Origin: Flavobacteriaceae bacterium | GTDB lineage: Bacteria > Bacteroidota > Bacteroidia > Flavobacteriales > Flavobacteriaceae | DNA: 39,654 nt | Reading direction: 5' to 3' | Assembly (NCBI GenBank): GCA_030626795.1 | Contig: DAOUTI010000003.1 | Location: 1-39,654 of the forward strand | In this document: piece after piece, positions 31,110 through 33,181 of the stretch | Position numbering within the stretch: the stretch's first letter is position 1 | Layout: the number at the start of each line of letters is the position of its first letter | Notes under the pieces: model-generated | Told to the model about the DNA's origin: nothing | Seen by the model: only the letters and a program-made list of their open reading frames with translations | Databases searched by the model: none | Position numbers and translations under genes: made by a program

Positions 31110-31415
31110 TTTTTTATATTATCTCTAATTTATTAGAAATCATTGACAAAAATAAGATGTTTTAATAATATAGCTATATAAAAAGTGATAAATATCATCT
31201 TTTATTTGAGAATTGTTTACTATAATTTATCCGTGAAATATACGATTGAAATACTTCCATTTAAATAAGATTGTTTTGAAGAAAAGAAAAGCTGTCAAAA
31301 GCTTTGTTAGTTGAGTACAAAATAGAAATATCAGAAAAACTCTAGGTTAACGGTAATGCTAGTGGTCTAAAGCAAGAAAGCCACTCAATTTCTTGAATGG
31401 CTTTCTGTAATAATG
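31110..31415. other. 306-base intergenic stretch upstream of sucA
   Basis: No gene is visible. It contains a possible sucA -7 element (TATTTTTG on the minus strand, 31154-31147) with no matching -33 TTG. It also contains the terminator hairpin of tRNA-Asn (31376-31405). The remainder (31160-31370) is AT-rich without repeats or open frames that I can support. Confidence 0.6.
31376..31405 (-). terminator. Terminator-like hairpin after tRNA-Asn
   Basis: On the minus strand GAAAGCCATTCAA pairs with TTGAGTGGCTTTC around GAAA, with one wobble, followed by the imperfect T tract TTGCTTT. It lies 11 bases downstream of the mature tRNA end. Confidence 0.65.
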
Positions 31416-31489
31416 CTCCTCCTCAAGGACTCGAACCTTGGACCCTCTGATTAACAGTCAGATGCTCTAACCAACTGAGCTAAGGAGGA
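31416..31489 (-). tRNA. tRNA-Asn (anticodon GTT)
   Basis: Read on the minus strand, acceptor TCCTCCT pairs with AGGAGGA and is followed by discriminator G, as usual for Asn. The D arm is TAGCTCAGTTGGTTAGAGCA. The anticodon arm TCTGA-CTGTTAA-TCAGA gives GTT. The T arm is CAAGG-TTCGAGT-CCTTG. The length is 74 bases without encoded CCA. Confidence 0.97.
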
Positions 31490-31644: not shown

Positions 31645-32127
31645 CTATGATAACTTTCTTTTTTGTAAAAAATAATCCAAAAATAAAAGCGAACTTAATG
31701 CAAATATACTTAGAGCAAATAATGGTGAAGTAAAAAGGGGTGGTAAGTTAAAAGAGAATAAGTTTTCCCATTTTATCAAGTTATCGCTAACAAAATTTGA
31801 TTGCGATGAAGCGTCTCCAAAATAAAGGAAAACATAAAATATAAAGAGTGTTATTCCCGAGAAAATAAAATACCAAGCCTTGGCACCTATTACAGGCTGA
31901 TACACTGAAGTTTTTGAATTTAATTGAATCTTAGATAAAATGCTTGAAGTAAAATTTATCGATGGCTTTTCTAATGTATGTTTTTGCAATAAAGAAGTTA
32001 ATGCCTTTTCTTTTTCTATATCTAAAGCATGAATATGCTGCATAACATGATCAGAAAAATCCAAAGAAGTGTTTTCAACTTCTAAGCCTTCTTTTATAAA
32101 TTTATCTATATTTTTATCTTGCTTCAT
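31645..32127 (-). CDS. Putative anti-sigma membrane protein
   Basis: A 160-residue protein with a soluble N-terminal half and two membrane helices (about 83-102 and 131-152). Its start overlaps the stop of the ECF sigma gene by four bases, the usual arrangement for a cognate anti-sigma factor. The soluble half holds two copies of a short motif: ENTSLDFSDHVMQHIHAL (about 17-34) and EKPSINFTSSILSKIQL (about 52-68), each with the form E-x-x-S-x-x-F-(S/T)-x-x-(V/I)-x-x-x-I. There is no zinc HxxxCxxC motif. I do not recognise a named family, and the anti-sigma role is inferred from position and topology. Confidence 0.65.
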   Translation of the reverse strand: MKQDKNIDKFIKEGLEVENTSLDFSDHVMQHIHALDIEKEKALTSLLQKHTLEKPSINFTSSILSKIQLNSKTSVYQPVIGAKAWYFIFSGITLFIFYVFLYFGDASSQSNFVSDNLIKWENLFSFNLPPLFTSPLFALSIFALSSLLFLDYFLQKRKLS

Positions 32128-32699
32128 ATGAGTTCTTTTACCTCTTCTTTTAACAGTAAAGATAGTTCATTATACAGCTTTTTTCTTGCTCTAAAAATTT
32201 TTACTTTCACATTGGTTTTGGTTAAACCTGTAATTTGTTCGATTTCTTCTACCGAGTTTTCATTTAAATAAAATAATGTGATCAATAAAGCGTCTGTTTC
32301 TGATAAATTATCAATTGCCGCTGCAATATATTTCTTTTGCTCACCGTTTTTAATAGCTTCTATTTGCGGAAAATCAAAATCAGTAGTATAATTATCAACG
32401 ACATAAGAATCTATATCAGTCGTTATAATCTTTTTTTTACGGATTTTTGAAATCGAATTTCTATAAATAATGGTGTATAACCAAGTCGAAAATTTTGAAC
32501 TCCCTTTAAATGTATCTAACTTTTGATAAGCCTTTAAAAAGCTATCTTGAGCAACCTCTTCTGCATCTTCAGTATTCTTTACAATTTTGATAGCAATGGT
32601 ATATGCCATATTCTTATACTTATCAATTAAATAAGTATAGGCATTTGTATCTCCTTGTAAAACTTTATCTATATAGATTTGATCCGAAATTGTATCCAT
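32124..32699 (-). CDS. ECF-type RNA polymerase sigma factor
   Basis: A 191-residue sigma-70-family protein with only regions 2 and 4. Region 2 (about 25-90) contains NTEDAEEVAQDSFLKAYQKLDTFKGSSKFSTWLYTI. Region 4 (about 130-180) contains LSETDALLITLFYLNENSVEEIEQITGLTKTNVKVKIFRARKKL, with the helix-turn-helix that reads -35 elements. It is followed by the overlapping putative anti-sigma gene. The promoter directly upstream (32737-32711) is of ECF type and is mirrored by one for the divergent gene, so the factor probably activates its own operon. Confidence 0.93.
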   Translation of the reverse strand: MDTISDQIYIDKVLQGDTNAYTYLIDKYKNMAYTIAIKIVKNTEDAEEVAQDSFLKAYQKLDTFKGSSKFSTWLYTIIYRNSISKIRKKKIITTDIDSYVVDNYTTDFDFPQIEAIKNGEQKKYIAAAIDNLSETDALLITLFYLNENSVEEIEQITGLTKTNVKVKIFRARKKLYNELSLLLKEEVKELI

Positions 32700-32710
32700 T
32701 ATTAATATCA

Positions 32711-32737
32711 GACGCTTATAATTATATACTGGTTACA
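32711..32737 (-). promoter_or_regulatory. ECF-type promoter of the sigma-factor operon
   Basis: On the minus strand TGTAACC (32737-32731), with 17 bases between TGTAAC and CGTC (32714-32711). The layout AAC-N16/17-CGTC is that of ECF sigma promoters. The ATG follows CGTC by 11 bases, so the transcript would have a very short leader. Confidence 0.7.
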
Positions 32738-32781
32738 ATTTATAACAATATCTTTTTATTTATCAATTTTTACAAAAAAAG

Positions 32782-32808
32782 TGTAACCATAATTATCTCT
32801 ACATCGTC
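32782..32808 (+). promoter_or_regulatory. ECF-type promoter of the divergent membrane-protein gene
   Basis: TGTAACC (32782-32788), then CGTC (32805-32808), with exactly 17 bases between TGTAAC and CGTC. It is identical in both boxes and spacing to the promoter on the opposite strand. The expected leader before ATG 32849 is about 34 bases. Confidence 0.7.
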
Positions 32809-32848
32809 ATAATTACCAAACAAATTAAATAACTAAAAATTTTAAATT

Positions 32849-33181
32849 ATGAACGCAGAAGCAATTTTAATCCCTTTAATAGTATTTTCATCAGTATTCG
32901 GAATATTTTTTGTTTGGATAAGTACAAGAAACAAAGAGCGTATGGCTTTAATAGAAAAAGGAGCCGATGCATCTCTTTTTGCCACAAAAAAAAGAAACTT
33001 TACCAATATTACTTTAAAAATTGGCATGTTGGCTGTAGGTATTGGTACAGGAATATTAATCGGTTCTTTATTGTCAAACTATACAACCCTAGATGAAGAG
33101 GTTGCGTACCCTTCAATGATATTTTTATTTGCCGGTCTATTTTTAGTAGGGAATGCAATGCTAGAAAGAGAGAAAAATTAA
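32849..33181 (+). CDS. Small DUF6249-like membrane protein, probable ECF target
   Basis: A 110-residue inner-membrane protein with three hydrophobic segments (about 5-24, 55-75, 88-103). After the first it has the conserved-looking cytoplasmic stretch STRNKERMALIEKGADASLF. The NKERMALIEKG pattern is typical of the DUF6249 group, found beside ECF sigma genes in Bacteroidota. Molecular function is unknown. It diverges from the sigma-factor operon and has a matching ECF promoter, so it is probably a direct member of that regulon and may act in envelope stress sensing or response (inference). Confidence 0.78.
   Translation: MNAEAILIPLIVFSSVFGIFFVWISTRNKERMALIEKGADASLFATKKRNFTNITLKIGMLAVGIGTGILIGSLLSNYTTLDEEVAYPSMIFLFAGLFLVGNAMLEREKN

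Follow-up and report, generated by a model that had tools for sequence, protein, structure and literature searches.

In the window, by which we mean the whole 39,654-nucleotide stretch of DNA that was analysed, an ECF sigma factor gene and a gene for a DUF6249 membrane protein diverge from a gap of 149 bp (32700-32848). This gap very probably holds two separate, opposed promoters, both read by the adjacent sigma factor, one serving its own operon and the other the divergent DUF6249 gene. Two TGTAACC-N16-CGTC sites pointing in opposite directions lie in the gap. The sigma-side site is TGTAACCAGTATATAATTATAAGCGTC (32737-32711, minus strand) and the DUF6249-side site TGTAACCATAATTATCTCTACATCGTC (32782-32808, plus strand); in both, 17 nt separate TGTAAC from CGTC. 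A preliminary description of this DNA had claimed mirror-image sites with 17-base spacing, and both are present in the sequence exactly as it put them. The features of the locus are as follows.

31645-32127, minus strand: operon partner of the sigma gene, which it overlaps by 4 nt; 160 aa; probable anti-sigma factor in the membrane.
32124-32699, minus strand: ECF sigma factor gene, 191 aa, ATG at 32699; Pfam Sigma70_r2 and Sigma70_r4_2.
32700-32710, minus strand: sigma-side interval between CGTC and ATG, 11 nt.
32711-32737, minus strand: predicted promoter of the sigma operon, -35 TGTAACC at 32737-32731 and -10 CGTC at 32714-32711; kept in 94 of 102 family loci.
32738-32781, no strand: stretch between the -35 boxes, 44 bp, A+T-rich.
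32782-32808, plus strand: predicted promoter of the DUF6249 gene, -35 TGTAACC at 32782-32788 and -10 CGTC at 32805-32808; kept in 94 of 102 family loci.
32809-32848, plus strand: DUF6249-side interval between CGTC and ATG (5' leader), 40 nt.
32849-33181, plus strand: DUF6249 membrane protein gene, 110 aa, PF19762; predicted target.

The sigma protein matches both Sigma70_r2 (PF04542, 60.5 bits) and Sigma70_r4_2 (PF08281, 41.1 bits) above the Pfam cut-offs and, with no further sigma domain in its 191 residues, belongs to the ECF (group IV) factors, in agreement with the preliminary description. Its best NCBIfam model is SigW (NF007223), but the score of 109.4 bits falls below the equivalog cut-off of 209, so that the protein does not qualify as SigW by this model. 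The closest solved structures are those of E. coli sigma-E (1or7) and SigW (5wuq), and the nearest named relatives come from uncultured Flavobacteriaceae. The 160-aa protein encoded by the second gene of the operon has orthologues at the same position within the genus. An AlphaFold2 model of low confidence (pLDDT 69, pTM 0.22) places three N-terminal helices ahead of helices at residues 82-102 and 135-157, and these last two are likely membrane helices. Profile searches returned no Pfam or other family match for this protein, and comparison with solved structures gave no fold match; position and topology make an anti-sigma factor its likeliest, and probable, identity. Just past the operon lies a tRNA-Asn gene (anticodon gtt; 31415-31489, minus strand), and the window also contains a tRNA-Glu gene at 2447-2519 on the minus strand. 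On the other side of the gap, the label "DUF6249-like" is borne out by a Pfam score of 60 bits to PF19762 against a gathering cut-off of 33. The AlphaFold2 model of the DUF6249 protein is all-helical, with four helices (pLDDT 75), and the chain probably crosses the membrane three times. Nothing below E 0.79 was found among solved structures, and a search of one literature collection for DUF6249 returned no relevant paper, with a text match in a plant paper only.

That the paired sites have a low probability of arising by chance, as had been proposed, agrees with both calculations carried out here. The loose pattern TGTAAC-N15-19-CGTC has 0.05 expected occurrences in the whole 39.7-kb window, and in a Markov simulation of the gap (n = 200,000) both sites arose in none of the simulated gaps and either site in 5. 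It has been established that ECF systems are characterised by AAC in the -35 box, CGT in the -10 box, a co-transcribed anti-sigma factor and positive autoregulation (PMC8103513), and motifs for whole ECF groups have been derived from upstream regions (PMC3817407). The site before the sigma gene follows this pattern of an autoregulated ECF promoter, having AAC in its -35 box, CGT in its -10 box and ECF spacing ahead of the sigma factor's own gene. On the DUF6249 side CGTC is followed by ATA, the consensus there being GTCwTA. Upstream of both -35 boxes, A- and T-tracts recur in the 94 family loci, and the 44-bp A+T-rich stretch at 32738-32781 is a possible UP-element region for both promoters. 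A literature search for such boxes in ECF systems retrieved RA0C_1534 of Riemerella, through a match in primer sequences that does not tie RA0C_1534 to the present sigma factor.

The two sites are conserved together with the two genes. Of the 22 genomes of the genus, 18 encode the sigma factor, and the four that do not are also devoid of DUF6249 and of the TGTAACC-N16 pair; the only other genus genome with no DUF6249 match has its sigma gene at a contig end. At the family level DUF6249 occurs in 88 of 201 genomes, and both TGTAAC-N17-NGTC sites accompany 94 of the 102 divergent sigma/DUF6249 loci. Conservation also extends to positions outside the letters used for searching, with C at base 7 in 187 of the 188 sites of these 94 loci. 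The base before GTC is mostly C (82/94 and 73/94 on the two sides), and GTC is followed by wTA, with A as its third base in 100% of DUF6249-side and 96% of sigma-side sites. Several variants of the layout were observed. In four loci the gap has grown to ~200-540 bp and both promoters are preserved, as though something had inserted between the two -35 boxes. In five loci the DUF6249 side of the gap carries two promoters of this type in tandem. Four others (L110, L124, L130 and L204) contain an extra gene between sigma and DUF6249, coding for small secreted-type, small multidrug-transporter-like or beta-barrel-like proteins. In three loci DUF6249 paralogues stand just upstream of a related sigma gene in the same orientation, without the divergent layout.

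Evidence that a single factor reads both sites comes from the way in which they change. Across 181 divergent loci, comprising DUF6249 loci from across the phylum and sigma loci of named genomes, the two sides were searched for sites independently of each other. The -35 boxes were TGTAAC/TGTAAC in 154 loci, TGAAAC/TGAAAC in 10, GGAAAC/GGAAAC in 2 and CGAAAC/CGAAAC in 1; matching non-canonical pairs thus number 13, against at most 5 in 10,000 re-pairings, a control that ignores ancestry. Spacers were 17/17 in 155 loci, 16/16 in 10, 18/18 in 2 and mixed in 12, and the -10 boxes of the CAT type agree as well (CATC/CATC in 5 loci, CATA/CATA in 2). Out-of-class DUF6249 loci, which had seemed to be motif-less, turned out to carry changed promoter pairs. 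Since re-pairing ignores ancestry, the promoter states were also mapped on a tree of 161 sigma factors. On this tree the -10 box went from NGTC to CAT four times in sigma-side promoters, accompanied by a change of the DUF6249-side promoter in each of the independent pairs (4 of 4). L239 has an additional -10 change on the DUF6249 side that the sigma side does not share. The -35 change between T and A at position 3 is a single event, found on both sides, and spacer coupling is looser, with ~3.4 of 5 pairs changing the same way and 0.1 the opposite way. The coupling is therefore not strict, as the 12 loci with unequal spacers and the unequal -10 boxes of L239 make plain, and tree-based sign tests have too few independent pairs for significance alone, the exact matches carrying the weight. 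Paired co-variation of this kind is what is expected of two promoters read by one co-evolving sigma factor, and argues for that arrangement. Within the protein, residues 150 and 160 of region 4.2 separate the T3 from the A3 types of -35 box without exception. The general idea of a residue-base specificity code in ECF sigmas is known (PMC8103513); here the correlation is a lead rather than a proof, because it reflects a single evolutionary change that relatedness alone could yield.

The same comparison bears on another way of reading the gap, in which the inverted repeat GGTTACA-N44-TGTAACC would be the operator of a dimeric or looping regulator, CGTC being incidental. The -35 boxes do form such a repeat, but the stretch between them ranges from 16 to 433 bp across family loci, a whole gene lies between the copies in L110, L124 and L130 with each copy still followed by NGTC at 17 nt, and the -10 tetramers co-vary too. 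An operator is hardly credible in these circumstances, and it was dropped on account of the variable distance and the intervening genes. With two opposed promoters as the preferred reading, the conservation of both sites, their absence where the gene pair is absent and their usually matching departures from consensus strongly support three earlier proposals by comparison: that TGTAACC-N16-CGTC is the likely recognition sequence of this ECF factor, that the factor probably regulates its own operon, and that the DUF6249 gene is a likely direct target.

A further claim, that both start codons are at the right distances from the sites, is true of one side of the gap. On the DUF6249 side CGTC precedes ATG by 40 nt, within the 34-50 nt found in most of the 94 loci and an ordinary interval, but on the sigma side the distance is only 11 nt. 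This short spacing is a property of the family, as CGTC lies 6-14 nt from the expected sigma start in 92 of 94 loci, mostly 10-11 nt, nearly every genus having its sigma-side -10 box ~10 nt from the ATG. Placing the start of the sigma gene further downstream was ruled out, because both the ATG and its distance to CGTC are conserved. ECF transcripts usually begin some 5-8 nt past the -10 box. Combined with the short interval, such a start would leave a leader of a few bases at most, which implies a near-leaderless sigma mRNA, a point that goes beyond the preliminary description. A near-leaderless transcript would be workable because, according to PMC9976891, Shine-Dalgarno pairing is not used by Bacteroidia ribosomes.

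The genome scan proposed in the preliminary description was run, and TGTAACC-N16-NGTC has exactly 2 occurrences in the source genome (83.5% complete, 240 contigs), both in this gap. When the same pattern was counted in 46 family genomes, the 30 with the locus contained 138 sites, 60 at the locus and 78 elsewhere (2.6 per genome), and the 16 without it contained 41, again 2.6 per genome. The full consensus is thus essentially private to the locus, the background elsewhere being that of genomes lacking it. Exact and one-mismatch scans for a larger regulon in the source genome, the genus and the 46 family genomes gave no excess over control, and the direct targets look confined to this locus.

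The source genome also holds a look-alike promoter class, an addition to the preliminary description. TGTAACA-N15-CGTC stands before a TolC-like gene and before another ECF sigma gene, and TGTAACA-N16-CGTC is found 33-50 nt before an ABC permease-like gene and two small secreted-protein genes. In most genomes of the genus TGTAACA-type sites are more numerous than in controls, and they remain where the present sigma factor is missing, as in G010. There are ~10 ECF-like sequences per genome, and TGTAACA-N15-CGTC is apparently used by a second ECF factor of the source genome; the differences at base 7 and in spacer length probably keep the two systems apart. The similarity of the site before that second sigma gene might suggest that both promoters of the gap are read by another ECF factor of the same cell rather than by the adjacent one. 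This is very improbable, as the TGTAACC-N16 pair is absent in the four genus genomes without the adjacent sigma, where the TGTAACA sites are still found (in G010, for example), and as promoter variants track the lineage of the adjacent sigma. It could also be argued that the adjacent factor drives both genes and yet has a larger regulon through sites of weaker consensus, for which the three TGTAACA-N16-CGTC sites, one mismatch away and 33-50 nt ahead of genes, are candidates. One-mismatch sites are, however, rarer in the source genome than in a reversed-pattern control (11 versus 31), and similar TGTAACA sites occur in genomes without this sigma, which leaves a larger regulon a rather unlikely, if serious, alternative.

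In the model that best interconnects these observations, the sigma factor would be released, presumably by the membrane protein whose gene follows it in the operon, bind the two sites and transcribe its own operon in a positive autoregulatory loop; it would also transcribe the divergent DUF6249 membrane-protein gene. Because no further copies of TGTAACC-N16-CGTCwTA are detectable in the genome, the three genes look like a closed module in which DUF6249 would be a dedicated output or feedback part. The broader picture, that of an ECF sigma with a one-locus regulon, in which a phylum-wide module of sigma, membrane partner and DUF6249 has private promoters that repeatedly change specificity in step with the sigma factor, together with a near-leaderless sigma mRNA, is put forward tentatively.

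Like known autoregulated ECF modules, the locus combines a sigma2-sigma4 protein, an AAC -35 box, a CGT -10 box, a promoter before its own operon and a membrane gene directly downstream; unlike them, it has a second identical promoter for a divergent gene, a pair kept across the phylum and no further detectable consensus sites. SigW/RpoE-type ECF sigmas are the best sequence matches of this factor, but it reaches little more than half the score that the SigW equivalog model demands (109 of 209 bits), the T at position 3 of its -35 box would set it apart from the known SigW/RpoE boxes, and its recognition helix lacks the P-x-G-T-V motif that is present in TGAAAC members of the same sigma family. 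Todor et al. (2020; ref. 50 of PMC8103513) reportedly related residues of ECF sigmas to promoter bases through autoregulated promoters; here, by comparison, there are two promoters per sigma at each locus, which allows a double check of every change. Systems of this kind are known; what makes the present example unusually informative is how deeply it is conserved, how its two promoters co-vary and that its consensus is private to the locus.

For DUF6249, a widespread uncharacterised membrane protein family, the locus provides a candidate regulator, a predicted promoter and a testable context. As every genome offers two promoters per sigma factor, the locus amounts to a natural experiment on the change of promoter specificity, in which the -10 box has been swapped in four lineages and the -35 box in one, in both promoters. 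The locus further hints at a way for two ECF factors with near-identical boxes (TGTAACC-N16 and TGTAACA-N15) to stay separate in one cell.
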